NCBI RefSeq assembly: GCF_020921035.1 | Contig: NC_063157.1 | Coordinates: 24,445,015 to 24,509,014, forward strand | Origin: Rhodamnia argentea | Lineage: Eukaryota; Streptophyta; Magnoliopsida; Myrtales; Myrtaceae | Length of the DNA: 64,000 nt | Direction: 5' to 3' | Shown: one piece after another, positions 1,301 through 40,890 of the stretch | How positions within the stretch are numbered: the first letter of the stretch is position 1 | Layout: each line of letters begins with the position of its first letter | The notes under the pieces: model-generated | The model's database searches: none | Seen by the model: the letters and a program-made list of their open reading frames with translations, nothing else | Told to the model about the DNA's origin: nothing | Translations under genes and position numbers: made by a program

Positions 1301-1939
1301 TTAAGCGAAGCCAGCCCTGCAATCCTTCCCTCCTTCTTTTAACTCCCCCGTTTGTGTCGACGGCGAAATCCCGATGGTCAAATGCCCGCATCCAACCTTC
1401 ACCGTTGCTTGCTTGCTCGGCCAATACCCGTGCATGAACTTGACCGTAACCTTCATCCTCACCAACATCACCGCCGACCCTTGAGTGAACTGATATAGCC
1501 TCTTCATTCTCCTTCCGCGGCCAGGCGGCAGGCCTGCTTCCGCCACGACCGTGAGGGCTCGGTGGCCCCTCTTGCTGATGTAATTTTCTGATGGTAATGT
1601 GTCGTTGTGGCTCGAGAGAGGGAGCCTGTGACCGTGTTGAAATAGCGCGACAAAGAGGTCGACGTCCTGGATGGCCAGGGCGAGTTTCTTGTTGGGGTTG
1701 GACGCGGTGAGCAGGATTCTGATGTGGAGTTTCAGAGGAGGGGACGAGATGTCGGAGGCGTTGGGGAGGCCGGAGAGGGAGAGGGAGTCGAGCCGGAACG
1801 TGGGAGGGTGAGGGTTCAGGACGAGCCACGCGATGGCGACGACCGCGCCCATCAAGACAACAAGGAGGACCAGCGACTGCATTGTACGGAAGATGATTTC
1901 GAAGGGTCCGGAGGAGGGGGCGGGGGCGGGGGCAGGGGA

Positions 1940-1977
<38 letters not shown>

Positions 1978-1984
1978 ACTCCAT
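1301..1984 (-). CDS. LEA-2 / NDR1-HIN1-like (NHL) membrane protein
   Basis: This intronless gene encodes about 227 aa. Residues 1-26 are an Ala tract (around a dozen Ala, from a GCC/GCG repeat) followed by Ala-Pro pairs. A single hydrophobic segment lies at about 37-57 (LVLLVVLMGAVVAIAWLVL). After it comes a lumenal or apoplastic LEA-2 (LEA14-like) beta-sandwich region with the typical RLDSLSLSGL and LLTASNPNKKLAL stretches. This is the architecture of plant NHL / LEA hydroxyproline-rich glycoprotein family proteins, which are plasma-membrane proteins linked to stress and pathogen responses. I chose the ATG at 1984 because the longer frame to 2053 starts at GTG and would run almost into a TATA box (2061-2067). 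The exact biochemical role is unknown. Confidence 0.85.
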
Positions 1985-2060
1985 TGGGAGAAAACGACTC
2001 TGGTGCCCGAAAGCGTTGAAGGAGGAGGCGATGGGGAAAGAAATTGGGTTCACGACATGG

Positions 2061-2067
2061 TTTTATA
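2061..2067 (-). promoter_or_regulatory. TATA box of the LEA-2 gene
   Basis: The minus strand reads TATAAAA about 77 bp upstream of the chosen ATG. This fits a transcription start near 2035 and a short 5' UTR. It also argues against using the GTG frame extension to 2053. Confidence 0.55.
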
Positions 2068-8144: not shown

Positions 8145-8266
8145 AGCAGAGCAGATAGGATCGACGGAGAGCCGAGCCAATCACTGTCGATAAGGGAGCG
8201 AGAAATGGCTGCACCTGCAATAATGCCTTATTCCTTAGCTGCACGTCGTCTTCTTCGTCGTCGCTC

Positions 8267-8273
8267 TATAAAA
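8267..8273 (+). promoter_or_regulatory. TATA box of CLE gene 1
   Basis: TATAAAA in a GC-richer context, 119 bp upstream of the ATG at 8386. This predicts transcription from about 8300 and a 5' UTR of roughly 85 nt. Confidence 0.6.
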
Positions 8274-8385: not shown

Positions 8386-8912
8386 ATGATGTCTCGGTCG
8401 TCGAAGCTTGCCTACGTTGTTGTCGCCGTGATCTGCTGCTTCATGGCGGTGAAGGAAGCGCTTGCTTCCGGTTGGTGACGTGGTTTTTCTTTTTTCTTTC
8501 TTAACTTAGTTGTTGTTTTGTTCAGCATTTTACCTGAAGAAGAAATCTTCTGGTCACTTCGTGGTCTCTGATCCTCGGGAACTTTTCTTCTTCGTTTTTT
8601 GAATTGTCAGATTGCACCGTGTCCTGGAACGTCAACGGGTGTCGGGCTGCTTCTCCGGCGGCACGACACCGAAAGGTTCATTTCATATAACATAGTAAAA
8701 GAGTATACGGTTCTTCCCATGGCGAGAGGCTGAGACTTTGCTATTGTCTGCTTCCTTTCCCTACATTTTCTCTACCGCAGGTGTTGGTGAGGAGTGCTGC
8801 TGCGGGGAAGGGAGAGACAGTCGCAGGGAGATGGAAGCTGAGAGAGGTTCCGTTGGGCCCCGATCCTCTGCATCACCATGGGAGCCCTCCCGAGAAACCT
8901 CGCACTCCATAG
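8386..8912 (+). CDS. CLV3-like: CLAVATA3-type CLE signalling peptide precursor, copy 1
   Basis: I assembled three exons: 8386-8470, 8611-8675 and 8781-8912. All introns are GT-AG with phases 1 and 0, giving 93 aa. Residues 1-28 are a signal peptide (hydrophobic core LAYVVVAVICCFMAV), so the product enters the secretory pathway. Exon 2 begins with DCTV and includes a second Cys. Exon 3 ends with the CLE box REVPLGPDPLHH, followed by HGSPPEKPRTP. Two introns and a Pro-rich tail after HHH are as in Arabidopsis CLV3 (core RTVPSGPDPLHHH). CLE peptides are processed to 12-13 residues, with hydroxyproline at positions 4 and 7, and are sensed by CLV1-family LRR kinases to limit WUSCHEL and meristem size. 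Leu at position 5, where Ser/Thr is usual, is odd. The 99-aa frame starting at 8205 overlaps exon 1 in another phase and is not the product. Confidence 0.88.
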
Positions 8913-9729
8913 CCAAAATGGCGCCCATGCAAAACCCTAATAGCTCTACTTCATACGCGTGCCTCTCTGTTTTCTCTTCCCATCTCGTTTGATGAGTCGG
9001 AAACCAAATCGTCTGTAAGTCACGCCCAGTTCTGCACTATAGGATGTGATGTGTAGGTGTCGGGTTGGTTTGTCCCTTTTTTGCGGGGTGTCTAAGGAAG
9101 GAGTCTTTCGCTCAGCTTCCTTATAGTTTCATCGATCGCGTAGACTGGTTTTTTGCCCGCAGTGTTGCAGGAGCGATAGCTATATACATAATCACGTTTC
9201 ACCTTGCTTCATTTTACGTGCATACACACGCATTATCATGTTCTTCTCAGTGTCACGCACTATACTTCACTGCGTAGAATCGGATCACAATGAACAAATG
9301 ATATGTGATGTGAAATGGAGCTAATTTGAGATTTGGACCTCTCCCGCATGCAAACCATACCTTGAGGATCACGATTCTATAACGTGCATACTTAATTTAC
9401 AAGATTTCTGTTCAGACAAAACGGTATAGAAAATGTAACATACCTATTGAATAGCTTGAACAAACAACGTCGGAAATGTTAAAACCCCTTTTAAAATAAG
9501 TCTGTCACGTAACATTTAGATGGACGTGTTCGGTGAAGATGAGAATGATTTTTGGTACGCAACAACTTTTGCAAACACATGTAAAAAGTGAAAATATCTG
9601 GTGCTGCTTCTGATCCAATAGTAGGTATCCATATCCCATTGTCGTTGGATTCCATCAACATGAGAGCAACGATATAGGTCCAGGTTCGCGAGTTTTCATT
9701 TACATAAAAACGACTGTTCAATATAATCT
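8913..9729. other. 3' flank of CLE gene 1
   Basis: The first part probably includes the 3' UTR. No further exon, gene or repeat is recognised up to the minisatellite. Confidence 0.35.
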
Positions 9730-10040
9730 ATGTGTTTCAAACCATGCAAACTGCCAATGGACGAAATTTTTTTCCAAACCTTGAGAAGTTCGAACGGACA
9801 AAACTTTTGTTCCAAACCTTGCGAATTACCAATGGACACAACTTTTGTTTCAACCTTGCCAAGTACGAATGGACACGTCTTTTGTTCCAAAGCTTGCGAA
9901 GTATCAATAGACACAACTTTTATTCCAAAAATTGCGAAATGTCAATGGACACAAATTTTGTTACGAACCTTGCAAAGTGCCCCATTGGGCAGGACTTTTT
10001 ATCCAAACTTGCCAAGTATCAATGGACACAACTTTTAGTC
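9730..10040. repeat. 37-38 bp minisatellite, about 8 units
   Basis: The consensus runs CCAATGGACACAACTTTTGT, TCCAAACCTTGCGAAGTA. The CAATGG word or its variants recur at 9755, 9792, 9830, 9867, 9905, 9943, 9983 and 10020, so the period is 37-40 bp. Because the period is close to, but not, a multiple of three and stops are rare, several overlapping open frames of up to 127 codons appear. These are artefacts and not genes. Confidence 0.85.
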
Positions 10041-11569
10041 CAGCGATATAAGAACAACACTACAGGTTCATCAATTTTCATATACAATGATAGATTCTTA
10101 CCGACTGGTCAATAAAATCTATGTATTCAATTGACTGTTTTACAATTCAATGGTTCAATTCCAGTTTAGTTAAGTTAGCACTTGACTATGGAAAATGAAA
10201 GAATATGAATGCTGCGCAATTAGAAGCTCTAATTAGAATGCAAAATTAGAGAGAATTTCTTTTTTCTTTTTTGTCTTTTATTTTTTATTTTTAAAGGGGC
10301 TCCTAATCATGGAAAACGCAAGGAGCTTATCACGAAGTCAGGCCGGGAAATCACCTTTTTTCCTGCAACAGCATCTTCTCCAGCCAACCACATGAGCATG
10401 TACAGAAGAAGATCCCATCACTCAATCACATTCCCAGGTGTCCTGTAAATAGCCATTCATTATCTCACAATCTTTATCTTCGATCCCACCTACGAAAAAA
10501 CAGTAAACAGTTCATAGCTTACATTTTGCGCATCTGACTCACAAAAATAAAACTTGATTGAAACGCAAATTATAAGTGAGTCATTTGCCTTTGTTGAGAT
10601 CCAATATATGAATGAAAGAAGCAATGCAATGTTTTACTAAACACTTCTTGGTAGCGAAACCACCCACAGAATTTAAAAAACTTAAAAGAGCATGAGTCAT
10701 ATATTCTGCGAGTAAATGGAATGTACAGAATTGTGATCGATCAAATATTGCAAAGTGCTGGTATCTATTATCGCTGATCAAGAAAAATTGGAAGAAAAAA
10801 TAGATACATTTGATAGAAATTCATTTTGCATCATATCTAAGGGATTCATTGGTTTGGGCCAAAAAAGCAATGTCACTCGATCTTTATTGCATCTTTCATT
10901 TTTCTTTTTATCTTATCCTTTCCTTCGAGTAGAGTGGACCTTCTATAAGAGAACTAAAAAAAAGAAAAAAAGAAAAAAAATGTCATTTGATGAATTCAAA
11001 AAGGAAAAAAGGCAACATAAAAACATTCCTTTGAAAACTAAAAAGAAGAATTTTTTCGAGAGGGGAAATCAAAGATATTTTGTTCCACCACTGAACCCAA
11101 GAGTTAAGAATAGCAAGTTCTTCATTACCCTGAATAAAATAACTACTTAAAATAATGAAATATTGCCCCTAATTTTTATGAAATACAAGATACTCATTGA
11201 ATGATAAGAAATATTATAGTTCGGTTAAAATAATTTTTTCTGCTACACAATCTTTCTTGATAAACTCAAATTCTAATAATTTTTTTGTAAATTTGCCGAA
11301 TTTCGAGATAAATTTGAAAAGCAAAGTTTTTTTTTTTTCGTAATATATGAGCTGTAATTGATTCCCTAAAACGGGAGTCTAGAAAAAACCTTTCTTGTCA
11401 AGTGTCTGAAGAGAGCTTCTTGCTCTGTTGAAAAGATCCTTTTACAACAAACGAGATCAAAGACCATCATTAGCAGCAGCTTCCCACTGTCAAAACAATA
11501 AAGGAGACGACAACCAAATCGGTAGCGCCAGGAAGATGTCACACCAAAGACATCACATTACCCTCCAAA
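10041..11569. other. intergenic between the CLE genes
   Basis: AT-rich, with poly-A and poly-T runs near 10260 and 11325. A Lys-rich open frame (10755-11150) has low-complexity composition and no recognisable domain. No gene is supported. Confidence 0.35.
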
Positions 11570-11785
11570 AATGGGATCGAATCACCGGTTGACTATCAAG
11601 TGCAAAAGTCATAGGATCGTACGGTCTGTATTTGACAACGAGCCGCCATCACATTCCATCCATCCCCTACCGACGTCATCACAGCATCTGTTCCCAGGTG
11701 GGTCTCACAGCTCGCCAAGCTGTACTTCAATGAGACCCCCCTGAGGAGAGTGACGTGGCGGTGACGGCAAGGCCAGTACTCGAAA

Positions 11786-11796
11786 GCGGCGCCGTC
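11786..11796 (+). promoter_or_regulatory. conserved GCGGCGCCGTC box upstream of CLE gene 2
   Basis: Identical to the 11-mer upstream of CLE gene 1 and at nearly the same distance from the ATG (263 versus 252 bp). It sits in a GC-rich stretch (11700-11820) within an otherwise AT-rich region. Confidence 0.4.
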
Positions 11797-11965
11797 GCCA
11801 CAGTGGCCACATCACAGCAAATTGCATGTCAACACAGTCAAATCTTCTCTCTCTCTCTCTCTCTCCAAATCTATGAGTTAAGCCAGTCTCAAATCATATC
11901 TCCAGAAATGGCTGCATGAGCAATCATTTGAGAGCATCTTGGGGCAAAGTTTGCCATAACTTCTC

Positions 11966-11972
11966 TATATAT
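11966..11972 (+). promoter_or_regulatory. TATA box of CLE gene 2
   Basis: TATATAT, 83 bp upstream of the ATG at 12049. A CT tract (11848-11867) precedes it. The equivalent sequence in block B (24857-24863) ends at the deletion that removed exon 1. Confidence 0.55.
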
Positions 11973-12048
11973 TGCAGAAGCATGTCTCCGCTCAACCACG
12001 CAGTTGCACCTTCCGATACTTCTGTGAGGGCCTTCCATTCTGGCGATC

Positions 12049-12484
12049 ATGGCTTCCAATTCTAAGCTTGGCCACGTAGTTGCTGTAGTCACCCTCTGCG
12101 TGCTCCTTCTAATGGCAGCTTCTGGTCAGTTATCAGTATTCTCTGTATGTGTGTGTGTGTTTTTGTGGGAACCGTTTTTCATCGTTAGTGTTCTTGCAGA
12201 TTGCGAAACAGGACATCGTGGGTGCGTAAGTGCAATGGCTGGGAGCATCCTGAAGAAAGACAGCAGAAAGGTGAGAGCTTTCCCGTGTTCAGGGTTGTTA
12301 CCGCTGGATGACCAAATCAGTAAAAATGCGAAGCGTAACGTGTTGGACTTTCTTACAGATACTGCGCACATTTAAGAAAGATGGAGGTAGCAAGATCGCC
12401 ACTGGAGAGTTGAGGGGGGTCCCTTCGGGCCCTGATCCAATGCACCACCATAAGGGCAGTCCTCAAAGGCCACAGACTCCATGA
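12049..12484 (+). CDS. CLV3-like: CLAVATA3-type CLE signalling peptide precursor, copy 2
   Basis: Three exons, 12049-12124, 12200-12270 and 12359-12484, have GT-AG introns in phases 1 and 0, as in copy 1. They encode 90 aa. Residues 1-26 are a signal peptide (VVAVVTLCVLLLMAASG). Exon 2 encodes DCETGHRGC and ends KKDSRK. Exon 3 carries the CLE box RGVPSGPDPMHH, then HKGSPQRPQTP to the stop. Relative to Arabidopsis CLV3 (RTVPSGPDPLHHH) it changes Thr2 to Gly and Leu10 to Met, and it keeps Pro4, Gly6, Pro7, Asp8, Pro9 and His11-12. The expected role is an apoplastic ligand for CLV1/BAM-type receptors that restrains stem-cell number. CLE40 is an alternative orthologue assignment, but the HHH plus Pro-rich tail favours CLV3. 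A gutted duplicate lies at 24.9 kb. Confidence 0.9.
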
Positions 12485-13382
12485 AAAACCATTAGCTTGC
12501 TCCTTGTATCAGCAGCACTTTCTTCGACTTTAGTACTTTTGAGATACTGGGGTGTCTGTTAGCTAGTGCTAAAATATAGCCTTAGCCTCAAATAGCTAAG
12601 AGATAATTTACGTAAGGTAACTTTTCTGTTTCGAGGAGAAGATGAAGTAGTTAAGTGTATCATGGGCTGTCTGTGGTTCCTTTGTGTTTTACCTTGTTTG
12701 CGAAAGCATGAACGTGTGCGGATGTTAGTACAAGATTTTGTTAAATTGTTTGCAGATGGGTATATCGTATATGGTGTATATTTTGGAGTTAATCCTTTTC
12801 AGGGAAGCCAGGATAAAAGGGTGACGTAAGCGTGTGAGTACTGCAATAACTAACCTTGAGCTGCCACAGAGAGAAGATAAGGAGAGAGATGTGACATTAA
12901 TGATTATGTAGATAGTGATAGGCTGTAATAACGACCGAAAGCACTCATTTCCAGCAGAGGATCGACAGATAATTTATCCGAGGGAAATTCACCTCTGCTT
13001 CTGGTTTACTTTTTGAAAAAAATGGTTCACTGGTACTCACTCCTGATTGAACATCTTGACTTGATGAGTGAAACTCGAGTACAACTGAGACTCGTCCTCT
13101 AAGCTAGGAACCATTTATGCAGTCCCAACCAATAAAATCACCATCCTTATCGGACAGAGACCTTTAACCATCAAAGGAGCGAATGTTATCAAATGAAGGA
13201 ACTGTATAGGACAGTTATTTTCACAGACATTGTCAAACCTCAAACAATTTGGTTGTTCCTTCCCGCTGCATATATATGTTTGCACTTTTGCATTACTTCA
13301 GTTCTACTTCAGTACCCAAGCAAATCTTGGAGAAGAATGCTACTCTATGGACTTGCATAGTTTGTACATTTTCATATAACAA
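12485..13382. other. 3' flank of CLE gene 2 and spacer to the PPR pseudogene
   Basis: The stretch after 12540 is conserved in block B from about 24960 on and probably holds the CLE 3' UTR. No other gene is seen. Confidence 0.45.
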
Positions 13383-14895
13383 TCAAAGATAAAAATCTCT
13401 GAAAATGATCGGAGGTGCATACCACACTTTCATTTCAGATGACAAAAGAACCAGCACTAGATATATGGACTCTGCCTCAGGATGCGATTTATTGCCAGCC
13501 ACGAATACATGATTGCTACAACCAATTTCAAACGAGCTAAATCCTGGTGTCTTTTGGATACCAAGCGTCTTCATTTTCCTCCTGATGTTATTCGCACCAT
13601 CCCAGCTTCTGTCTGCGGCATATATAATTGCGAGGAGGACATAATTCGAGTCTGCATCAGGGTCTGGATCGACTAGATACTTTGCCAACCTTTCAGCTAA
13701 CTTGACATGCTCGGGAGTCCTGCATGCAGCCAACAAAGATCCCAACACAATGTCGTTTGGTTTCATGGGCATGTTTTCTATGACATTTTGTGCATCCTCC
13801 AACCTGCCTGCCCGACTATAGAGATCCACCTAGCAACCATAGTTTTGGCTCAATTCTGTGAACATTCTCCATGGTATGGAAGTACCCTAGTCCTTCATCA
13901 ACTAAACCAGCATGACAACAAGCAGTGATCGCTCCTGTAAAAATAACTCCATCTGGCTTGAATCCTTCCTCGTGCACCCTGTTAAATAACTCGAGAGCCA
14001 TCTCAGCATGCCCATTGCCTGCCAACCCTGCAATTATAGTGTTCCATGACACAGGAGTTCTCTTTGGCATTTCATCAAATATGAGGTGAGCATTCTCAAT
14101 ACACCTGCACCTGGAATACACGCCTATTAAGGAGTTGCATACCCTTATATTGTCCTGGAAGTCTTGGTTCATGACAAACCTATGTATCCACAAGCCCAAT
14201 CCAAGCGTCGCCCAGTTGGCGCAAGCAGATATTGCACCTATAACTGCGACGAAATCAGGCCGCACCCGAGACAGTTGCATCTCCCGAAACAACTCCACTG
14301 CTTTGTCGAAATGACCAGTCTTGACAAACCCATTAATCAACACAATTCACGTTACAGCATCTCTGTGGGGCATTTTGTCGAACAGGTCTACTGCCTTCCG
14401 CATCTTGCCCTTCTTCACATAACCATCGATCATCGTATTCCAAGCAACAGAATTCCTCACCCCCATCCCATCAAAAACCATCCTGGCCAACTCCACCAGA
14501 TCCAGCTTCGCGTGCATGTTAAGGACAGCTGTGGCCACCATCACGTTTTCCACGACCAACTCCAGCTTCTGAGCATATCCGTGAAGCGAAGCTCCAAGGA
14601 ACTCGCTTCCGGACGGGAAACCAGCGTAACCTGAGAGAAGCATGGCAATTGTGATGTGGTTGGGCTGCACCCCAGACCGCACCATCTCGGAAAAGACTCC
14701 GACTGCTTCGGCCAATCAGCCATTTCGAGTGCAACGAGCCATGGAAGAAGTCCATAAGACGGTGGGGTCAAGGGATTGAATCGGCTTCATGAAGGAGAGG
14801 CCGTGTCTAGGGGCAGCCTGCGTTAGCTTTGGAGGCTGTGGCGGTTGATGGAGTTAAGTGGAAGTGGCGACGGCGGAGAAGGCGGGAAGGCTCAT
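13383..14895 (-). pseudogene. pseudogene of the CLB19-like PPR gene
   Basis: This is collinear with the intact 508-codon PPR gene at 25820-27346 but broken several times. An Arg codon became TGA at 14716-14718. A Trp codon became TGA at 14347-14349. A Leu codon became TAG at 13830-13832. An 8-nt net deletion shortly after (about 13841-13848) shifts the frame. The remaining pieces still read as PPR repeats and an E domain, so loss is fairly recent. The original ATG would be at 14895. Unless truncated products are made, this copy is non-functional. Confidence 0.9.
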
Positions 14896-14961
14896 GCTAA
14901 GTTCAAATTACCGTTAGAAGAAGAGAGGGCGTTGCTGGGTTCCGGCGGTGCTACACGCTAA

Positions 14962-16066
14962 GGGGCTGTTTAGTATCGTTTTTGTTGCAAAAATGTGATT
15001 CTGATTAGAATCAATGTTTTTAATTATGCTTCTTGGATGAGTTTTAGAGAATTATAACGCGTTTGGTAACTGTATAAAATTTCTGTTCCTGAAATAGAAA
15101 CGCGTTCGGTAATTACACAAAAATTTTATTTTATAAAATAATTTCTATTCCCAATTTATCATTTAAATCAAATAATTATGTAATCATATTTGATTACTTT
15201 TTTAAAACCCCATAGTTGTGATCCTATTGCACCATGACATCTTTTTGACCAAAATACAGATGTTTCATATTTATTCTTTGGAAGGATAATTCGCTAAAAT
15301 TGTTATTTTTCTATCTTCTCTTGAGGCGTTGCATATGTCAAGGAGAAAAGAGGTAATTGTGATTATCTTTTATTTCTCAAAACAAATAAATTCCATCTCT
15401 ACCATATAAATGGCTCAGGTTTACCTTTGGATACCATGCAGATAGTCATTGATGTAGTATGGTACTCCGACACCAAATTAGGCATGACTTAGGAAAAATC
15501 GGAAGGCAAAATTATAAAAAAAAACAGGACTAGCCAATTGAATGGGCCCATTTCTTAATTTTTGAAACTTTTCCGAACGATTTGCCCATGAGTTGTAAAA
15601 TCGTCATTTGGGAGAAATTGGAATGAAAAATCATCAAAAATAGGATCGGCCAGTTGAAATGACCCATCTCCTAATTTTTTATATTTTTTGGAATTTTTTT
15701 AATTTTTTCTTTTTTTTATATAATTTTTATGAATTTTCCATTTTTTTGATTTTTTAATCATTTTTTTGATTTTTTTATTTTTTATTAATTTATGAAAACT
15801 TGATTAAAAAAAAGTTATCCAGATCAGGTTGGGTGACCCGCGCCCGACAAAAGTGAGAGAAGACTATTGTTGCCTTTTTTATTCTCAAAAGTGTTCTTTT
15901 TTTGGAGGATCAAGTTTTTTTTTTTTTTTTGTTCTTATTTTTTATCCAAAAGTGTTTCCAGAATCAAAATTAGAATCAAAATCATTTACGTTACTGAAAG
16001 TGTTTCTGATTCTTTTTTGTTATGGATAACAAAATTAAAGGAACAAAAACGTTATCAAATAGGCAC
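14962..16066. mobile_element. Tourist-like element carrying an LTR fragment
   Basis: The ends GGGGCTGTTTAGTATCG and, inverted, GTGCCTATTTGATAACG both continue into TTTTTG. They are flanked by TAA (14959-14961 and 16067-16069), as in PIF/Harbinger elements. The interior (about 15480-15700) matches, in reverse orientation, the tandem-repeat part of the long LTR at 37967-41468. Shared words include AAAAATAGGATNGG and GACCCATCTCCTAATTTTT. The element is absent from the matching place in block B. Confidence 0.65.
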
Positions 16067-16800
16067 TAAGTCTCCTCGAATCTAGTCCGTTTAGAAACAT
16101 GGGTTGTTTCTAGGATTGCACATGTGACCTAGTTTTCTTTAAAAAAAAAGTCCTGGGTGTCGGACACGCTTGACACGTGTGTTGACAACATGTCCGGCGC
16201 GTTGATCGCATGTCAAACGTGAATTGGTGTCCGACACCGATGCGGCGACCTTCTTGACGTGTCGGTGCTTCCGTGACTACACGTCACTGTTCCATTTAGC
16301 TCTTTATAACGTTAGACTGAATCTTCTACTTTAGCTTATAATTTATTTATTGAATGAACACCACTTTTTTTATTTGGTAAGGAGATATATCTTTTGTCTT
16401 TTTCAATTTTCCCTTCCCTTTTATCTTTTCTACGAATTGTTTTATGATTGATTATAAAAATTTGAATCAAGTTAAGATATATCCTAACAAAAATATATTC
16501 ATGCAATGAAATTAATGTACATTTAAAACTGTGATTAATTTTTTATTCTTATAATGGAATGCATTTTTTTTATTTACTTTAGTTTTCAGTGAAATGGATC
16601 GTTGAAATTACCTATACTCATAACATACGTATTCATCGTGAAAAACATATTTTTAATGCTCACACAATTTTTGTTTCACAAGGCTAATTTTTCTTTAAAA
16701 AATCTAATCTGGATAAAAACTGTGCATACTTTGCTAAAAAAGAAAAACATTACGCAGGTTGCGTACGGACCAAGAAATACTTGACATCATCTCAATTGCT

Positions 16801-24179: not shown

Positions 24180-24868
24180 GAAAAAACATGGGTGTGAACG
24201 ATGAGCTCTTAACAAAAATGTCACCAAGTTTGGGCCATGAAGAAACATGAAGAGTATATCCGAGCAAAAATAACCAAGCCGGCGAATGCACTGGCCTCTG
24301 GTCAGTGGCGGCCCGTCGGATCCGCCACTTCATCCTTCCAAGGCAATCAACGAGCGAGCCAACCAATGCGCACACAAGCGCGGGAGGAGGGGATCCACCC
24401 AAAGTCGCTGAAAAAGAAAGCGTGGGCTCGACTGGAGAGCAGCCCCTGCCACGTCGGTCGAGGCAAAGATACGCGCCGCGTAAGGGGGTTGACTGTAAAG
24501 TAAAAAGCAAAGTCATAGGATCGTACGGCCCCGTATTTGACGACGAGCCGCCATCACATTCCATCAGGGACGTCATCACAGCATCTGTTCCTAGGTGTGG
24601 GTCTCACAACTTGCCAAGCTGAACTCTAATGAAACCTCCCTGAGGAGTGACGTGGCTGTGACGAGAGGGCCAGTACTCTAAAACGGCGCCGTCGCCACAG
24701 TGGCCACATCACAGCACACAGCACGTCAACACAGTCAAATATACAGTCTCTCTCTCTCTCCAAATCTACGAGTTAAGCCAGTCTCAAATCATGTCTCCAC
24801 AAGTGGCTGCACGAGCAATCATGAGCATCTTGGGGCAAACTTTGCCATAACTTCTCTATATATTGCAG

Positions 24869-24961
24869 ATTGCGAAACAGGACATCATGGGTACCTAAAT
24901 GAAGTGGCCGGGAGTTTCCTGAAGAAGGACAGCAGAAAGGTGACAGCTTTTGAGCTACTGA
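24869..24961 (+). pseudogene. relic of a CLV3-type CLE gene (exon 2 only)
   Basis: The 71-nt exon-2 homologue (24869-24939) still reads DCETGHHGYLNEVAGS and ends KKDSRK followed by GT. However, exon 1, intron 1 and the start codon are gone: the TATA region runs straight into exon 2 at TATATATTGCAG|ATTGCG. Exon 3, including the whole CLE box, is also missing: GACAGCTTTTGAG joins intron 2 to the 3' flank. No signal peptide or ligand can be made. The promoter-like sequence upstream (24500-24868) remains similar to block A. Confidence 0.9.
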
Positions 24962-25819
24962 GGTACCTGTTAGCTAGTGCTAAAATATAGCCTTAGCCTC
25001 AAATAGCTAAGACATAATTTAGCTAAGGTAACTTTTCTGTTTGGAGGAGAAGATGCAGTAGTTAAGTGTATCATGGGCTGTCTGTGGTTCCTTTGTGTTT
25101 TACCTTGTTTGGAAAATAACGGGTGAATGCACTTGTTATCGATGATAAAAGAGCGATTACTTTATTTCTGAGATCAAAAAGGAGTATTTATAGACTTAGG
25201 GTTAAGCCTACTATAATCACATAAATAATCCAAACTTGCTAATATTCTAAAGTAATAAACCCAATAGCACTCACTTCAAATAGAAAATCAACAGAAAATT
25301 TACCCAAGTAAAATTAACCTTCGCTTCTAGTTTACTTTTAGAAAAAAATCGCTAACTGGTACTCATTTACCCAAGTAAAATTGACCTCCGCTTCCGATTT
25401 ACTTTTTGAAAAAATCGCTAATTGGTGATCGTTCTTGATTGAAAATCTTGACTTGATGAGTGAAACTTGAGAACAAACTGAGACTTGTCCTCTAAGCTAG
25501 GATTCATTTATGCTGTTCCAACCAATAAGCCACCATCCTTATCAGACACAAGGCTTTAATTATCCAGGTAGCCAATGTTATCAAATGACGAAACTGAGGA
25601 GGACAGTTGGTTTCACCAACATTGTCAAATCTCGAACAATTTGCCTGTTCCTTCCCGCTACATATAGATTTGTGCACGTTTGCAATACTTCAATTCTACT
25701 TCAGTACACAAGCAAATCGAGGAGAAGAACGCTACTCTATTGATTTGAATTATTTCTACATTTTTATACAACAATTAAAGATAAAAATCTGGTCTCCAAC
25801 AGAGTTAAAGAAACATTTA

Positions 25820-27346
25820 TCAATCATTCTCATATAATTCTTTTGAAATGATCGGAGGTGCATAACATACTTTCATTTCAGATGACAAAAGATCCAGCAT
25901 TCGGTATATGCCCTCTGCCTCAGGATTTGATTTATCGCCAGCCACGAATTCATGATTGTTACAACCAATCTCGATCGAGCTAAATCCTGGTGTCTTTTGG
26001 ATACCAAGATTCTTCATTTTCCTCCTGATCTTGTTCGCACCATCCCAGCTTCTATCTGCAGCATATATATTCGCAAGGAGCACATAATTTGAGTCAGAAT
26101 CAGGGTCTGGATCAACTACATACTTTGCCAACCTTTCAGCTAACTTGACATCCTCATGAGTCCTGCAAGCAGCCAACAAAGATCCCAACACAATGTCGTT
26201 TGGTTTCATGGGCATGTTTTCTACAACATTTAGCGCATCCTCCAACCTGCCTGCACGACTATAGAGATCCACCAAGCAACCATAGTGTTCAATTCTCGGC
26301 TCAATTCTGTAAACATTCTTCATGATATGGAAGTACTCGAGCCCTCCATCAACTAAACCAGCATGACTACAAGCAGTGATTGCTCCGGTAAAACTAACTC
26401 CATCAGGCTTGAATCCTTCCTCCTGCATCCTGTTGAATAACTCCAGAGCCATCTCGGCATGCCCATTGGCTGCGAACCCTGCAATTATAGTGTTCCATGA
26501 CACAAGAGTTCTCTGTGGCATTTTCTCAAATATAAGGTGAGCATACTCAATACACCCGCACCTGGAATACATGTCCATTAAGGAATTGCATACCCTTACA
26601 TTGTCCTTGAAGTCTTGCTTCATGACAAACTTATGTATCCACAAGCCCAATCCAAGCGTTGCCAAGTTGGAGCACGCGGATATTGCGCCTATAATTGCGA
26701 CGAAATCAGGCTGCACCCCAGACAGTTGCATCTCGCGAAACAACTCCAACGCTTTCTCAAAATGACCAGTCTTGACAAACCCATTAATCAACACTGTCCA
26801 CGTTACAGCATCTCTGTGGGGCATCCTGTCGAACAGGTCTATCGCCTCCCGCATCTCACCCTTCTTCACATAACCATCGATCATCGTATTCCAAGTAACA
26901 GAATTCCTCACCCCCATCCCGTCAAAAACCATTCTGGCCAACTCCACGCGATCCAGCTTCGCGTACATGTTAAGGACAGCCGTGGCCACCATCACGTTTT
27001 CCGCCACCAATCCCAGCTTCCGAGCATATCCGTGAAGCGAAGCTCCGAGGAACTCGCTTCCGGACGGGAAACCAGCGCAACCCGAGAGAAGCGTGACGAT
27101 CGTGATGTGGTTGGGCTGCACCCCAGACCGCATCATCTCGGAAAAGACTCCGACTGCTTCGGCCAATCGGCCATTTCGAGTGCAGCGAGCGATGGAAGAA
27201 GTCCATAAGACGGTGGGGTCAAGGGAGTGAGCGGGCTTGACGAAGGAGAGGCTGTGTCTAGTGGCGGCCTGCGTTAGCTTCGGAGGCTGTGGCGGTTGAT
27301 GGAGCTCAGTGGGAGTGGCGGCGGTGGGGAAGGCAGGAAGGCTCAT
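25820..27346 (-). CDS. CLB19: E-class pentatricopeptide repeat protein, probable plastid RNA-editing factor CLB19
   Basis: This intronless gene encodes 508 aa. The N-terminus (about 1-40) is rich in Ala, Pro, Thr and Gln with few acids and could be a plastid transit peptide. A PLS-type array of PPR repeats follows, with motifs such as VTWNTMIDGYVKKGEMREA, VTWTVLINGFVKTGHFEKA and LVSWNTIIAGFAANGHAE. The C-terminal E region has HYGCLVDLYSRAGRLEDA, GSLLAACRTHEDVKLAERL, NYVLLANIYAADRSWDGA and KTPGFSSIEI. There is no DYW domain. The last third closely resembles what I recall of Arabidopsis CLB19 (At1g05750), needed for editing plastid rpoA and clpP transcripts. That assignment is from memory. The PPR E-class call is secure. 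A TTTATAAA motif lies about 50 bp upstream of the ATG. Confidence 0.85.
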   Translation of the reverse strand: MSLPAFPTAATPTELHQPPQPPKLTQAATRHSLSFVKPAHSLDPTVLWTSSIARCTRNGRLAEAVGVFSEMMRSGVQPNHITIVTLLSGCAGFPSGSEFLGASLHGYARKLGLVAENVMVATAVLNMYAKLDRVELARMVFDGMGVRNSVTWNTMIDGYVKKGEMREAIDLFDRMPHRDAVTWTVLINGFVKTGHFEKALELFREMQLSGVQPDFVAIIGAISACSNLATLGLGLWIHKFVMKQDFKDNVRVCNSLMDMYSRCGCIEYAHLIFEKMPQRTLVSWNTIIAGFAANGHAEMALELFNRMQEEGFKPDGVSFTGAITACSHAGLVDGGLEYFHIMKNVYRIEPRIEHYGCLVDLYSRAGRLEDALNVVENMPMKPNDIVLGSLLAACRTHEDVKLAERLAKYVVDPDPDSDSNYVLLANIYAADRSWDGANKIRRKMKNLGIQKTPGFSSIEIGCNNHEFVAGDKSNPEAEGIYRMLDLLSSEMKVCYAPPIISKELYEND

Positions 27347-27720
27347 TGCTAAAGTTCAAATTACCGTTAGAAGAGGCCGTGTTTCATTTGGCTCTTTATA
27401 AACTTTTGTCTTTTTCAATTTTTCCTCTCCTTTCTCGAATTAAAAACTTGTACCGAATTAATATATATCCTAACAAAAATTTACCCATCTAATGAAATTA
27501 ATGTACACTTAAAACTATGATTAACTTATTTTTTTTTATAATGAATGCATTTTTTTCATTTACTTTAGTTTACAGTGAAATGGATAGTTTTTTTTTTTTT
27601 TACCTATGCTCATAACATACGCATTATTCATCGTGAAAAGCATATTTTTAATGTTCACAAGGTTGTAGGTTTGCTTGCACAAAGCTAATTTTGCTTAAAA
27701 AAGCTAATTTGGATAGATAC

Positions 27721-28313
27721 TAGGGGTGAGCAAGATGGCTGCCTGAACCAGTTAGTTTGGTCCGGTTCTCAAGGGTGCCGGTCCAATTCCCGATTTCATA
27801 AAGTCAGAGCTGGTGATTTTCGATCCGGTTTCCAATTTCAAGGAGGAATCGAATCGCTCGGACTAGACCGATGATTTTCCATTTACAAACCATGTGCTTC
27901 TTAATAAGATTGTCCCTTGCGGTGTATATCACAGCAATTTGAAGAATAGAACTCTGGAGCACCATTGATGCTTTTTCCCATTCCGAACTTTCATGCGGTG
28001 CGTACAAACTTCAAAAATTGGGACGAAGTGATTTTGAACCAACACCGCCAAAGGATGACGAGAAATCTGGAATCAAAAGATCGAGTCGCCTAACCCGAAA
28101 AATGTGGAGCTTAGTTGGATGTATGACCATTTCGGACATTTCTCCTCCATTGTATTGCACGAAAACATCATATGTATTACTAATGGACCGCCTAGGAACC
28201 GGACCGACCCGAGTCGGTCCGGTTCCCATCCCTACGAAATGGGAACCGATTCTTCCGATCTGATTCCCGATTCCAGGGAGGGACCAAATCGGATCGGGAA
28301 CCGATCACCCCTA
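27721..28313. mobile_element. hAT-like MITE with 8-bp target duplication and empty site
   Basis: The ends TAGGGGTGAGCAA and inverted GATCACCCCTA are flanked by ATAGATAC (27713-27720) and ATAAATAC (28314-28321), which match at 7 of 8 positions. Block A has the unoccupied site at about 16712: GGATAAAAACTGTGCAT. The insertion is therefore younger than the block duplication. The interior is GGNNCCGA-rich with no transposase. Confidence 0.88.
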
Positions 28314-29080: not shown

Positions 29081-32000
29081 TCATCGCCCGTCGGCCGAAG
29101 TGAAGGACTCAGCAAACCCAGCGGGCTTAGTGGGGATGCTCCCCAAGCTGTCCCCGAGAGTTCCGATGCTCGACCCTTTGCTTTCCGCTTCCTGCCATAC
29201 CTTCAACAACTCGGGAAGTGGCACATTGTAATCGATTCCAGAAGAGTCCTCCAGCTCGTCGCTCATCGGCTTCCACCGGTCGACTAGCGGGACCAGCACG
29301 TTGACCACGTGGCTCATGTCGGGCCGATGGTGAGGCTCTCTGGCAGTGCAGTGTCCGGCAAGTTCGGCCACTATGGAGATGCTCTCGAGAGCTTCTTCGG
29401 TTTCCTTAGCTGCAGGGTCAAGGGCAGCTACGAACTTCTCTTTGCTCGATCTGATTCGCCAGAACCACTCCGCCAGATACCTGCTTTCCTCCGAGCGCTC
29501 CTCGTCCAGTGCTGTAAGTCCCGTCAGAAGCTCCATTAGTACCACACCGTAGCTGTAGACATCGACTTTTGTTGTGACCTTTCCCATAACTGAAACCAAA
29601 AAGAAGTTAAGAGTAAGCTCGGCTGTAAACAGTGTGCACCCATTACATGATTTTACATCAATCACATTGATTAACTTTGTAGCCAAGATTGTCATGAAAT
29701 GATTTCACATAAATTCAAGTGAACACCTTTCTCTGAGGCTATGTAAACAAGAATGAGAGATTCAAGTGATAGCTCCCTACCAGCATATTCAGGTGCAAGA
29801 TACCCGAAAGTCCCAGCGAGCTGCGTCGCAAAAGACCTCTCTCCATCGGGAGCGAGTTTAACCAATCCGAAATCCGAGACCTTCGCTCGGAGGTCATCGC
29901 CTACAAGAATATTTGAAGACTTCAGGTCTCTGTGTATGAACGTGTGCTGGGCCAGGCTGTGCAGATACTCTATCCCTCGGGCCACATCCAAAGCGATTAT
30001 AAATCTATTCCTCCATGTAAGAGGCTCCAATTGGTTTGCCTTCCACTGAAAAAGATGCCGACTAAGAGCTCCCTGCGGCATGTACTCGTACACCAGAAGC
30101 CTCTCGCTTCCTTCGGTAGAGTAACCCAAAAGAGACACCAAATGCCGATGCCGAAGTTTAGATAGCACGGCGATCTCGGATCGGAACTCGTCCAATGCTT
30201 TACTGCAGATTATATTTGATTCCATCCTCTTGACAGCAATTTTGGTCCCATCACATAGCTCTCCCTTATAAACTGTACCGAAGCCACCTCGTCCAAGTTC
30301 ATTTTCAGGCGCAAAATTCTTCGTCACCTTGCGCAGGTCTTGGACAGATATGCAGAGATTTCCAACCTCGATTGAACGTGAATTTTCCGTTCCGTTACTG
30401 AGTGTGCTCAAGGAGCTGGTCCCGGAATGAGTGAACAAACTTGTCTTGGTATTGTTAGAAAATTTAATCTTGACTTTAGTCACTGGACCTGAAGTGTCTC
30501 TAGGAGGAATGACAGTGGAACTCGGAGCCTCGGATACACCTTTCCTTCTCTTGCGGAAACAGATGTAGAGAATAATCATGAGGAGGACAAACGGGAGGAT
30601 TAGAGTAGGAACCAACAAAAGGACATTGTATCTTTTGGTTCTTTTGGGTCGAGACTGTGGTCGACTAGAGTTTGACCCGGCAACTGTGGAAGGTGAGATT
30701 TCAGGTTTCGGTGGAGCTGGCGAGTTTTCTGGCAATGGGCTGCTACTGGAAGGCGGTGACACAGTGGACGCAGTGTTATTGCGGACCAGGAGAGGGTTTC
30801 GATCAATGATGACCTTCACGCTACCGTGGAACATGGGCAATGGTGGCTCAAGATTGTTCCCGCTCAAGTCCAGCAACCTCAAAGACTTCAACTCAGTATA
30901 GTTTCCAGGGACTCCGCCATGTATGTTGTTGTCTCCGAGCCTAATTTCGAGCAACGAATCTAAGTATGCGAGGGAAGCACTCAGAGTGCCGTTGAGGTTA
31001 TGCCTCGGCAAGTTCAAAATGGATGCTTTCAACTTCGAATTGCAGCTTAATCCGAACCACGGCCCTTCACATGGAGTATTCCCAGACCACCGAGTAACAA
31101 GGTTCTCAGGATAATTGACACCGCCAAGAAAATCTAAGAGTGCATTAACTTCAGGGGCACATTGCATCCCAGGTTCAGGTAGACAAAAGAAATTGGAATC
31201 GTAAGTAACATTGCGTACCTTAAATTTTGGGATCGGACCCATGAACAGATTGTTGTTCAGGTCAAGTTTCTCCAGGTCCATACGGGCCAAGCTTTCGGGA
31301 ATTAGACCAACAAGTTTGTTCCTATTGAGATTGAGGTCCTTCAGAGAAGTCAGAGCTCCAATATTCTCCGGAACCATGCTGGCGAATTGGTTTCCGTGAA
31401 GCCACAACTGCGTGAGCGATGTCATGGAAGCAATCACATCTATGCCACCGCCAATTCCGCCACCATTTTGGTCGTTCAACCACAATATCTGCAGCATAGA
31501 TTGACCGAAACTCCCAGGAAGCTCACCAGAAAGACTGTTATATGAAAGCTTCAGCACCGTTAGGGACGGCATCGCACCTAAAAACTCTGGCACCGGGCTG
31601 ACCAAGTTGCAATTCATCAGGGAGAGATTCGTCAACTGAACGGATTTCGCCAATTCGACCGGCACAGACCATCCAGAGGTCTTATTTAAGGGGTTATAAT
31701 CCAAGGCCAGCACCTGCAAACTGGTCAGGCCATCAAAAAAATCCGGGGGGATCGCCTCAAAGCCGTTGTAATCCAAATACGCGTATTGCAGCTCCGTCAA
31801 TCCTCTAAAACTGGGCAATGCCCCAGACAAACTGTTCCTCTGGAGGCCTAAGTTGGAGAGCATTGAGAGCTGATTGAAACTCGGAGGCAATTTGCCTCGC
31901 AGACCCAATCCTTTGGCCTGAATTTGGGTGACTCTTTCACCAGAACAGTAGACATAAGGCCATTTGGGAGGGCCACAAGGGTCATCCCCATCAATTGGCC

Positions 32001-32139
32001 ACTCAAGGAGCTCTGGATTCTCCAACCCTTTTCTGAAATCATTGAGTACTTTGAGGTCGCTAGGGTCAGTGACGCCACAAGCCAGTGTAATCAGGCTCAG
32101 ATGCAAGGCAATGCACAGGTTTCTCCTAATGTCAACCAT
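29081..32139 (-). CDS. TMK-type leucine-rich repeat receptor kinase
   Basis: Two exons (32139-29781 and 29589-29081) have a GT-AG phase-1 intron and encode 955 aa. The layout is: signal peptide about 1-22; LRR block about 70-305; a non-LRR island with paired Cys (about 319-366, including FFCLPEPGMQC and CEGPWFGLSC); a second short LRR block about 370-440; a Pro/Ser-rich stalk; transmembrane helix 505-527; and a kinase domain from about 610. Kinase motifs are GRGGFG 616-621, Lys637, HRD 736-738 and DFG 756-758. The intron falls after EYA and the join reads EYAVMGKVTTKVDVYSYG. The C-terminus GFAESFTSADGR is the TMK family signature. TMKs are plasma-membrane kinases for auxin (ABP1-linked) and brassinosteroid-related signalling. 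Which TMK this is remains unclear. The frame extends upstream to 32454, but that part is low-complexity leader and the ATG at 32139 is followed by the signal peptide. Confidence 0.93.
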
Positions 32140-32502
32140 CTTCGCCGGCTGAAGAAAACCATCAAGAAACCAACAGAGACAGCATAACCACAATGCAACT
32201 TCCAAAAAGCACAAATGGGCTGAGACAGAACCCCCCAGAAAGAAAAAGAAACAGGAAAAGAAGGAAGAAAGCGACGAAGAAGTTCCGAAGCCGGGGAAGC
32301 ACCCTATGTAACAGAAAGGGGACAATTTTCTCGGGAAAATGTCTGAAAATCTGACTGTAGTAAAAGAAACCAGATAAAAAACAAAAACAAAACAAATGGG
32401 GTTTCCAAACAGTAGCTCAAGATCAATCTTTTCGCTTTGGAAGATTTTATCCATTTCTTGACACTCGACTCCCCCAAGTCAAGGGGAAACAGTCCTCCAT
32501 GA

Positions 32503-33598: not shown

Positions 33599-34136
33599 CA
33601 AGTGGCAACTTGCATATGCATGGGGTTAACAGCAACAGCAAGATTCATATCGGAACGCCTCTAGTAATCTAATCTGTTCCGGAATTAACAAAAGATCAAG
33701 AAGATAGCTTCTGCTATGTTTGAACAATGAAGTAACAATATAGAGTATATCTGACCAAAATCACAAAACCGACAAATGCATCGAAACGTTAAGTTCTGAG
33801 ATCTTATGTCATTTCACCCTTTCACTACAATATGGATAGGCCAAAAACCAGTGATTCTACTGGAAGACAATGATCTAACAATGTTTTCTGCTGGGAGGTT
33901 GCATACACAGTGTTTTACTCACCTTTCTCAATTATATAATTCATCCTCACACTTCTGATTTTTCGCCGATTAGTTGCTTTCCTTCCCCAAGTCATTTCTT
34001 CATCACGTCGCAACCAAACGAGGAATCGAGATACTCTTGTCGATCCATTCCGTCGTTAAAAGAAAAACAAGTACCACTAGATTATTAAGTTCCTGAAATG
34101 CTGTAATAGTACTGACAACCTAGATTCACAAATTCT

Positions 34137-35290
34137 AACCCAGAAAAGAAAATCTAGAAATCACTACTTTCTTCATATTACCATCTTCTATCTCAAATGA
34201 AGTCCTACCAAAACAAAATATTCAAACTAGATTTGGGAACACTGTACTGAGAAAGTGAAGTTATAGTGCAACATCTCCGTATCAATGTTCCTTGAAAAAA
34301 GGTACCTTATCTACAAGGTACCTTTTGATTGAGTCAACCACCTTCACAGGAAAAGTCTCATCTTCTGGGTAATAAGCAATTGGATCAGCTAACAATGGAT
34401 CTGGAAGATCAAGAATGCCTTCCAGTGTGGCGTGGAGACAATAAGCTGAGTAGGTAACATGATACCCACCTTCTTGGACAATGAGAATGCGCCCTCCACT
34501 GTGCCTATCCGTGAAGCTGCGAATTTGTCGACCAATTGCCCGATATCCATCCATTGTCAAGCATTGCCTTCCATTTGGATCGAACTATGGTGGCAAAGAC
34601 AATAATCATCACGTAAAACATTCTGGTAAAACAAAGACATGTAAAAGATTATCGTATAGACAAAAGTCCTTTTGGATCTATAGCAAAATATCTCAGTTCG
34701 TGTAGCTATCCACATAAATCTTATTGAAGAAAAGATTCTGTATTTTCAACTTTGGCTCATAGGGATGAACTGTCCAATATGCACATCCTGCTCCTTATTT
34801 TTGTACTTTCACAATTTGTGGATTGTGGGTCTAGCATAAAGATGGGGTGAACAATGCGCTCTTAACAAATCACAAACAAATATGTCACCAAGTTTGGCAA
34901 TTGCATGCACCTAAGCATCCGTAGTTTTCTGGACAATGTAGCTTTGCATTAATGGCCCTAAAGACGCTGTAAAGTTTAATTGCCTTATTGTGCTTCCTCT
35001 AGAAACTTAGACTGCAACAGTTTTCATGAAACGTAGAGGATGCTTATTTCACAGTCTTAAAAGTACCCTAAGTTCTCATCATGCTATACAAGCATTCTGG
35101 CTTGAAAGAGAGGAAAAAAACTCATCCTTGTCTGAGAAATGGTCTCTGCTCCAGGAAGATGTTGCTTTGAACTGATTAAGGTGCCATTCTCCTCAGTAAC
35201 AGCTTGTACAAGTAGAACATATCCCAAATCCCATGATCACGTGGCCATTACATTAACAACAGTAGTTCCAAATTCGTGCTCCAATTAAGG
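34137..35290. repeat. duplicated segment, HDA8 3' region and intron 2 (copy 1)
   Basis: Collinear with 58720-59740. It includes HDA8 exon 3 and most of intron 2, with shared landmarks such as AATATGCACATCCT, CACCAAGTTTGG, AGCTTTGC and CATATCCCAAATCCCA. The duplication continues at 37570-37966 and 41469-42880, which match 60030-61830. Confidence 0.8.
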
Positions 35291-37272
35291 CTAATTTTCT
35301 TCAAAAACATCTTGTCAGGGCAGTCATAGTAACGTCATAAGTATTTCTAAGCCTTCATCTTTTTGGTTATGATAAGCTTTCATCCTTACATGAGAAATAT
35401 AGCTCAGCCATTGTCCAAGATTGACATTACTATGAGATTACTATGGAAATGATTCTTGTTAGAATGAAGTAATTCTCTCCTGTAAGCAAGGCACAAGCCA
35501 CAGCATGTTGCCCCAAAAGCAAAATCCCACACTTAATTTGGAGAATCACCTAGTTTTCCTAAGAAAAGAGAGAGATTCTTTAACCACAAAGAAATTGATC
35601 TACATAAAAGGAGAAAATAGATTCTCACAAAGTGCCACTCTGTCGAAGGCATAGCTCAAGTTAAAAGTTAAGACATGTAACTGACTTGTTTGATAGTTCA
35701 ATGACTCACAACAGTATATTTCTATGCAATATACCAACCTAGGAAATCCAGTTCCACATCAATTACTGAAGAGAGTGTACCTGCATGTAATTGGTAAGGT
35801 ACAAAAGAGGATCTACTTACCGCACTAGAGTCTTGGCCAATAACAAGAACAACCATTTCGGGTTTGAAACTCTCCACGGCTGGCACAACCAGCTCAGTCA
35901 TGGCATACTCGTATCCCCTGTCTCCTGTTCCATTTGGCAAGGGAATGTTCATGTTATACCCATATCCTTCACCTTCACCGAGCTCATCGACAGATCCATT
36001 TTGCGGATGAGATGGACCCCACGACCCGTGATTCATGTGGAGAGAGATGGTAAGAACGTCGTTGGATTGGTAAAACCCCTCTGCTGTTCCATTTCCATAG
36101 TGCACATCTATATCAACCACGACAACCCTTTTGCACCCGGAGTCCAATGCCAATCGAACTGCTAGACCGGCATTGTTTAAGAAGCAATACCCATCGGCTT
36201 GAGAAGGCTGAGCATGGTGACCAGGTGGCCTCACTAGTGCGTATGCAATGTTCCCCTTACCATCGAGTACATGTTTCATAGCAGACAGTGTGTTACCGGC
36301 AGCAAGAAGCGCGGCACCCCATGACCCAGGGTTCAAGAAAGTTCCGCAGCAAAGAACTTTCCCTCCACTTTTATCGGCTTCCACTAGTTCTTTTATGTAT
36401 TCTGGAAGTTCAAAGATGAGAATCACATCCAATTTGAGGTGGTTTTCCACATTCAACTTATCACCAACCCAATGCGGCTGCCATGAAAGGAACACGTTCG
36501 ACAGCCTCACAAGTTAACTGTAACAACTCCGACTACTACACCAAAACTTCTGAGTGCAGACATTTTCCACTGCTAATCACGCGGCATGGTGTTTAACAGG
36601 TTAAATGCTGAAACAAACATATTCAGAGAGCCATTTTCTTTTCAGGAAGTCGGTTATCTCGAGTCCCTGAGGATACATTTCTCTCACAACTAAGAAGTAC
36701 CTTCCAATTCATTATCAAATGACACCAAACCTCAACTGGGCATAGCGAATTAATTAACTTCAGCACTACAAGAAAATCTGAGCTTGCACTTCCAATCCTC
36801 CAACACTACAGAAGACCAAGCAAAAGACCAAAATCTCTCTCTACCCTACAGCTCACCCACAATCACATGCAGCCTTTTACCCATCGAATCACTGTTCTCT
36901 CCATACGCATTCCAACCCAATCAAGCTTTCTCACACAACAACAAAGAACAAGAGAACAGAGTATGGTTACCAAGAGAGAGAATCAGAATCGTAGAAAGTA
37001 CCTGGAGAGTGAAAAGAAAGGAGTTGAGAGATGAGAGCAGGCGTTGCAGAATGCCAGGAGACGTAGGGAGAGATGGGTCCACGCTTGAGGATGGAGACCA
37101 TGTTTCGGACCCTGTCGGGGTTCTCCGGGTGCCTCTCGAGCACGTCCAAGAAACCCGGGTCGGAACCCGTGTCGAACACGCCCCGACCCGTGTCATGGTT
37201 CAGCATCCCGTCGTGCCAGAACGCGTCGACCCGGCCCGTCGAAGGAGGAGGAGAAGGAGAAGCAGCAGCCAT
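34282..37272 (-). CDS. HDA8: class II histone deacetylase, HDA8 type
   Basis: Three exons, 37272-37002, 36401-35821 and 34584-34282, have GT-AG introns and encode 384 aa (Arabidopsis HDA8 is about 377). The order is: RVDAFWHDGMLNHDTGRGVF near the start; RPPGHH at 148-153 with the catalytic His pair; QADGYCFLNNAGLAVRLAL; DIDVHYGNGTAEGFY at 187-201, where Asp189 and His191 are zinc ligands; and GQDSSA at 279-284, with Asp281 as the third ligand. Exon 3 starts FDPNGRQCLTMDGYRAIG and ends FFKEH. It should remove acetyl groups from lysines by Zn2+ catalysis. In plants HDA8 is a little-studied class II member, probably cytosolic and nuclear. All catalytic residues are present. A degraded copy of exon 3 lies at 58.9 kb. 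The last 20 aa are less conserved. Confidence 0.93.

Positions 37273-39281: not shown

Positions 39282-39284
<3 letters not shown>

Positions 39285-39331
<47 letters not shown>
39285..39331. repeat. (GA)n microsatellite inside the LTR
   Basis: An uninterrupted GA tract of about 47 bp near the middle of the solo LTR, followed by GTGATCGTGAGC. In other LTRs such purine tracts can lie close to the transcription start, but no TATA box is obvious here. Confidence 0.85.
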
Positions 39332-39333
<2 letters not shown>

Positions 39334-40479: not shown

Positions 40480-40890
40480 AGGAATGACCATAGTCAACTG
40501 GCCAAGCCTATTTTTGAGATTTCTTTTCCCGATATTTCTGAAATGATACTTTTACCCTTTAGGGGTAATTTATCTCCAAAAATTCTCGTGAGTTTACGGA
40601 AAATGCCGAAAATTAGGAGATGGGTCAGTTTAGGTGACCAATCCTATTTTTGGTTTTCCAGTCCTCGTTTCCTTTGAAAAATGATGATTTTACCCCTCAA
40701 GGGTAGATCGCCCCAAAAAATTTCAGAAAATTTTGAAAAACGTCGAAAAAATAGGAAATCGCCACAATCAACTAGCCAATCCTATTTTCGACCCTGGGCT
40801 CCCGGTTCTTTCAAAAATGATAATTTTTCCCTTTTCGAAAAATTGTCCCTTGATTCTTTCAAATTACAATTTTTCCCATCATGGACAAAT
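40480..40890. repeat. three ~137 bp tandem repeats inside the LTR
   Basis: Units start near 40480, 40616 and 40753. Each has AGGANATNNNC, then CAACTNGCCAANCCTATTTT (or close), then a TTTACCC/TTTTCCC block. Divergence is moderate. Related sequence in reverse orientation is found inside the Tourist-like element at 15480-15700. Confidence 0.7.

Follow-up and report, generated by a model that had tools for sequence, protein, structure and literature searches.

Two adjacent CLV3-type CLE genes with different ligand cores, and a decayed third copy, in Rhodamnia argentea

How many CLV3 genes does a CLV3-type locus of Rhodamnia argentea hold, and how long have they been kept side by side? CLV3 restricts the number of stem cells at the shoot tip, and the response of meristem and fruit size to mutation depends on how far CLV3 is redundant. 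We analysed a window of 64,000 nucleotides, bases 24,445,015-24,509,014 of contig C8 in a genome of 346.66 Mb in 74 contigs. Two qPCR primers designed for a guava beta-galactosidase (PMC8724366) match this genome in the correct order and 290 bp from each other, each with a single mismatch, as would suit a member of the Myrtaceae. In this window an earlier note had described two complete three-exon CLE genes (here g1 and g2) with common intron positions and phases. These gene models hold, and the ligand cores predicted for both genes are identical to those given in that note:

8386-8912, plus strand: g1, CLV3-type CLE gene, three-exon model, 93 amino acids, ligand REVPLGPDPLHH(H)
8386-8470, 8611-8675 and 8781-8912, plus strand: exons of the g1 model, stop counted in
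12049-12484, plus strand: g2, CLV3-type CLE gene, three-exon model, 90 amino acids, ligand RGVPSGPDPMHH(H)
12049-12124, 12200-12270 and 12359-12484, plus strand: exons of the g2 model, stop counted in

The observation of two intact, linked CLE genes is thus confirmed, as is their distance of about 3.7 kb (3,663 bp from ATG to ATG, and 3,136 bp from the stop of g1 to the ATG of g2). We consider it likely that this is the eudicot CLV3 locus, at which an old local duplication gave rise to two CLV3 genes that act in one circuit.

All four introns of g1 and g2 have GT-AG borders. In both genes intron 1 is in phase 1 and cuts the Asp codon of an S-D-C motif, and intron 2 is in phase 0 and lies directly after the Lys of an RK motif. 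Most CLE genes of rapeseed and tomato have no introns, according to excerpts of the literature. LR precedes the cores REVPLGPDPLHH (g1) and RGVPSGPDPMHH (g2), and after them come H and a Pro-rich tail with TP at its end. The R-x-V-P-x-G-P-D-P-x-H-H core, with Pro7 and the next His, is present in both, with HHH at the core end. The two cores differ at positions 2, 5 and 10, position 10 being Leu in one and Met in the other. A strongly hydrophobic stretch, a candidate signal peptide, lies within residues 10-22 of both precursors, the best 12-residue Kyte-Doolittle means being 3.23 and 3.32. A CLV3-type 13-mer is expected by chance about 3e-10 times in 64 kb, for a motif picked after being seen. 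When all six frames of the window and the 10 kb on its left were scanned for CLE cores, g1 and g2 alone were found. Pfam gave no accepted match for either gene, and one RING match of g2, below threshold, was taken as chance. With g1 as the only query no match to solved structures was obtained, and scanning the window with Rfam and for tRNA genes gave no hits. The interval between the genes also contains a degenerate 38-bp tandem repeat of 5.6 copies (9767-9978).

To which CLE genes is the pair closest? The C-terminal parts (ligand and tail) of six sequences, including the presumed sequences of Arabidopsis CLV3 and CLE40 (AtCLV3 and AtCLE40), were scored pairwise. Against AtCLV3 the scores were 88 for g1 and 80 for g2, against AtCLE40 53 and 49.5. 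Within these six sequences, the pairwise scores of both genes clearly favour CLV3 over CLE40, and neither has the CLE40-like ligand with a short tail. The neighbours of the pair were compared with those expected at a CLV3 locus:

1304-2062, minus strand: LEA/NHL-type gene, recognized by eye
35.7-37.3 kb, minus strand: HDAC gene, neighbour of the pair
near 43 kb and 49-51.5 kb, minus strand: two ALMT genes, neighbours of the pair
C8:24671589-24674673 (contig positions): YAB2-like YABBY gene, exons YAB2-like by eye

Genes of the LEA/NHL type (by eye), ALMT, HDAC and the YAB2 type (by eye) were all present, in agreement with a mostly presumed expectation from Arabidopsis and tomato. We take Arabidopsis CLV3 (At2g27250) to lie between an ALMT and a LEA/NHL gene, and we assume a related Arabidopsis block with ALMT1, HDA8 and YAB2. 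A YABBY search of the genome gave at least 12 exon matches at six or more loci. One of these loci is also on C8, past g2 by about 214 kb; by our own arithmetic, the chance of a YABBY gene within 214 kb of the pair is about 0.7%. Because of their ligand, tail, gene structure and neighbours, g1 and g2 fit CLV3.

The linkage of the pair to a YAB2-like gene recalls the YAB2-CLV3 linkage of tomato, where CLV3 presumably lies at the other end of a 294-kb inversion. This inversion is the tomato fasciated mutation, and excerpts of PMC4034497 place a breakpoint in YAB2. The window further holds an LRR receptor kinase gene at 29084-32478 on the minus strand, TMK-type by eye. In addition, three collinear similar stretches (71-78% identity) link 34097-42846, the HDAC/ALMT region, with 58684-61819.

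If both genes are of the CLV3 type, the genome might carry its CLE40 elsewhere. Our genome searches score the best two to three candidates per query, and further CLE genes were surely missed. Among the matches listed, exon 3 of g1 retrieved both genes and a weak place on C6 (L003), and exon 3 of g2 retrieved both genes and a weak match on C1 (L022, expect value 1.48). Neither L003 nor L022 has a CLE motif on either strand, and both were rejected as CLE genes. Again among the matches listed, a fragment of Arabidopsis CLE40 retrieved one place on C6 (expect value 0.0135) and one on C10:

about C6:22950623-22951150, minus strand: L008, CLE40 candidate, two GT-AG introns in phases 1 and 0, core RQVPTGPDPLHH
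C10:18992130-18992186: L009, intronless CLE gene, core RRVPTGSNPLHN

In L008 the core is followed by a seven-residue tail, the acceptor of exon 3 being one picked of two possible. It has a C-terminal score of 77 with AtCLE40 (prepropeptide z 6.7) and of 58 with AtCLV3 (prepropeptide z 2.7). The genome thus holds a candidate CLE40 gene apart from the pair. Since L008 fits CLE40, neither g1 nor g2 need be CLE40. Rcd1, which we take to be a neighbour of Arabidopsis CLE40, was matched on C2 and C10 in a search of the genome, with none on C6, and neighbour support for L008 is absent. The Rcd1 match on C10 lies 47 kb from L009.

These data bear on the idea that the roles of the two genes are split, with one serving as shoot CLV3 and the other, more likely g2, acting elsewhere, for example in the root or in differentiating cells like CLE40. 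The three ligand positions that differ (2, 5 and 10) speak for such a split, as does the prepropeptide of g2, which is nearer than that of g1 both to AtCLE40 (shuffle z 3.8 versus 1.2) and to L008 (z 4.1 versus 2.5). However, L008 fits AtCLE40 far better than either gene (C-terminal 77, prepropeptide z 6.7), and the place of CLE40 seems taken. The two genes also have a promoter element in common, described below. We regard split roles as improbable, and the presence of L008 lowers their odds further and raises our confidence in a pair of CLV3 genes.

The common promoter element lies at a similar position in both genes:

8201-8224, plus strand: 24-bp element AGAAATGGCTGCAnnnGCAATnAT in the g1 promoter, 20 of 24 bases identical to 11904-11927, starting 66 bp before the TATA box at 8267
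11904-11927, plus strand: 24-bp element in the g2 promoter, starting 62 bp before the TATA box at 11966

None of 1000 shuffled pairs of 200-bp promoters reached the score of this element. On statistics alone the case for it is modest; the stronger point in its favour is the matching position. According to excerpts of PMC10911594, the CLV3 genes of Arabidopsis and tomato have no conserved noncoding sequence in common, and an element common to two old paralogues would therefore be a useful lead.

How old is the pair? Outside the ligand, the similarity of the two precursors was matched by none of 500 shuffles, and among the six sequences compared each of the two genes has the other as its closest partner (full z 14.0). 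Plain DNA similarity, on the other hand, is nearly confined to the ligand exon and the short promoter element. Over 87 codons the estimated nonsynonymous (dN) and synonymous (dS) divergences are 0.66 and 1.83 by NG86 and 0.72 and 1.60 by YN00. In 264 of 300 bootstrap resamples the 5-95% range of dS was 1.1-3.2, and the remaining 36 failed or were saturated. Judged by this divergence, g1 and g2 are an old, diverged pair and not a fresh duplicate.

For the 15 codons from LR to HHH, dN is 0.16 and dS 1.48, and the 13 ligand codons comprise six with silent changes, three with residue changes (positions 2, 5 and 10) and four that are identical. We simulated neutral evolution without insertions or deletions and counted how often reading frame, splice sites and start were kept; this happened in 0 of 20000 runs at d=0.8 per lineage, in 0.075% at 0.5 and in 0.7% at 0.3. 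From the ligand codon changes and this simulation, it is most likely that selection has acted on g1 and g2 ever since the old duplication.

The earlier note had treated the locus as two genes. A comparison of the window with itself shows that 11587-16721, which includes g2, has a counterpart at 24487-27721 that matches it piecewise with 81-94% identity, and a decayed third copy at 24487-25116 had gone unseen:

24487-24862, plus strand: promoter of the decayed copy, to the TATA box, homologous to 11587-11971 (Kimura two-parameter distance, K2P, 0.101 over 351 sites)
24869-24939, plus strand: orphan exon 2 of the decayed copy, 10 of 71 bases and 7 of 24 residues different from g2
24947-25116, plus strand: 3' flank of the decayed copy, homologous to 12536-12705 (K2P 0.068 over 170 sites)
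13386-14901, minus strand: broken PPR gene beside g2, with in-frame stops and an 8-bp deletion
25823-27355, minus strand: intact PPR gene beside the decayed CLE copy, 511-codon open frame

Two deletions have removed most of the third CLE gene. The first, of 222 bp, took the 5' untranslated region (UTR), exon 1 with the predicted signal peptide and almost the whole of intron 1; the second, of 258 bp, took almost the whole of intron 2, the ligand-bearing exon 3 and a piece of the 3' UTR. The two deletions are bordered by short direct repeats (TTGCAG and CTTT), a pattern that would be expected of microhomology-mediated deletion. Seven of the 10 base changes in the orphan exon 2 alter a residue, with no sign of constraint. 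Most of the 24-bp promoter element is kept in this copy. With its promoter and TATA box, the decayed copy could still yield a transcript without a ligand.

Between the g2 segment and its copy, K2P is 0.16 over the 71 sites of exon 2. The PPR gene, of the E/E+ type, has a K2P of 0.10 over 1345 sites. At a K2P of about 0.10, the g2 segment and its PPR neighbour were duplicated later than the split of g1 and g2. The outcome is a reciprocal loss, the CLE gene being kept on one side and the PPR gene on the other. An extra dose of CLV3 may have been neutral or unwelcome. Searches of the genome with DNA, among their best candidates, found the relic for g2 alone and no further copy of the g1 region. 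The earlier assignment of both genes to the CLV3 type gained from the two introns, the ligand, the tail, the locus neighbours and the separate CLE40 candidate. The pair is, however, old and diverged, and it is accompanied by a decayed third copy.

A joining of haplotypes end to end in the assembly could in principle produce such repeats, and haplotype duplication is, as a matter of general knowledge, a common assembly fault. However, beyond the ligand exon there is hardly any alignment between g1 and g2, g2 and the relic differ by about 10% and by large deletions, and all three lie within one contig of 29.9 Mb, which makes an artefact very improbable.

The decay of the third copy raises the further question of whether g1 or g2 might be on the same path, with one gene working and the other intact but silent or decaying. 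A copy of the g2 segment has already decayed here, and decayed CLV3 copies have been described in Solanum (PMC11964936). Against this, frame, splice sites and ligand have outlasted a dS of about 1.6-1.8, which the neutral simulation did not reproduce in any of 20000 runs at d=0.8 per lineage, and TATA-like boxes are present at both genes. A single working gene is thus, in our judgement, an unlikely state of this locus.

Several observations weigh against two old CLV3 genes that are both maintained. The CLV3 assignment uses pairwise scores, and the Arabidopsis sequences and neighbour genes are presumed ones; moreover, the LEA/NHL-type neighbour at 1304-2062 has no accepted Pfam match. Over the whole precursor dN/dS is not low (0.36 by NG86 and 0.45 by YN00), and dS is near saturation, which leaves the age of the pair loose. 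With 500-bp promoters, 12 of 500 shuffles reached the score of the 24-bp element, and no common 3' element was found in the 1200 bp downstream, where 36 of 100 shuffles reached the best score.

Taken together, we favour two CLV3 genes that would have arisen by an old local duplication. Both precursors would enter the secretory pathway and be trimmed to peptides of 12-13 residues, probably arabinosylated on Pro7. The peptides would then be sensed by CLV1/BAM-type receptors and CLV2/CRN, so that WUS is restrained. We infer expression in the shoot apex, this processing, the binding to receptors and the placing of both genes in one circuit. In a later segmental duplication g2 and the PPR gene were copied, after which the extra CLE gene lost its coding exons and the PPR gene by g2 decayed; the extra CLE dose was thus not kept. 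Positions 2 and 5 of the CLV3 dodecapeptide of S. prinophyllum were computed to be tolerant, in agreement with earlier Arabidopsis work cited there (excerpts of PMC12661658), and both peptides should therefore be active, though their strength may differ. Dose, a difference in strength or split roles may apply here. More tentatively, and with more doubt than confidence, we propose that the neighbouring CLV3 genes, with their different ligands, form a long-kept two-ligand shoot stem cell system beside a separate CLE40, in which neither gene is a spare and later copies are purged.

Arabidopsis CLV3 (At2g27250) resembles g1 and g2 in its three exons, its VPSGPDPLHHH-type ligand and its Pro-rich tail, and presumably also in its ALMT and LEA/NHL-type neighbours. 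We take it to be a single gene, whereas two intact genes and a relic are found here. AtCLE40 and L008 have a ligand related to those of g1 and g2, and L008 also has two introns in phases 1 and 0; unlike the pair, both are without HHH and a long Pro-rich tail. In tomato, SlCLE9 and SlCLV3 presumably lie on different chromosomes, whereas g1 and g2 are adjacent. The tomato genes are similar to our pair as two CLV3-clade ligands with differing cores in one genome, and SlCLE9 partly compensates for the loss of CLV3 (excerpts of PMC12661658 and PMC11964936), which bears out the premise of the earlier note that a paralogue does so in tomato and its relatives.

In the open-access literature we found no match to exact 12- and 11-mers of the ligands and, by title, no report of a CLV3 pair in Myrtaceae. 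The closest parallels are the local duplicates of Solanum, where several CLV3 copies likewise occur together, intact beside decayed: CLV3a and CLV3b are intact in S. prinophyllum, and decayed copies are found in S. aethiopicum, S. anguivi and S. linnaeanum (PMC11964936). When either of the near-identical S. prinophyllum copies is lost the effect is weak, perhaps one of dose, but it is severe when both are lost (PMC11964936). However, the intact S. prinophyllum copies are identical but for one 3' UTR variant, whereas g1 and g2 are near synonymous saturation and differ in their cores; here the young copy is the decayed one only. Within the open-access literature, the kind of arrangement is therefore known from Solanum, and what is new is the age of the pair, the difference between its ligands and the reciprocal loss. 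The published tandem CLV3 cases that we found, all in Solanum, are young. With an old, divergent pair beside a freshly decayed copy, long-term retention and quick loss could be compared within one locus of a plant that does not belong to the Solanaceae.

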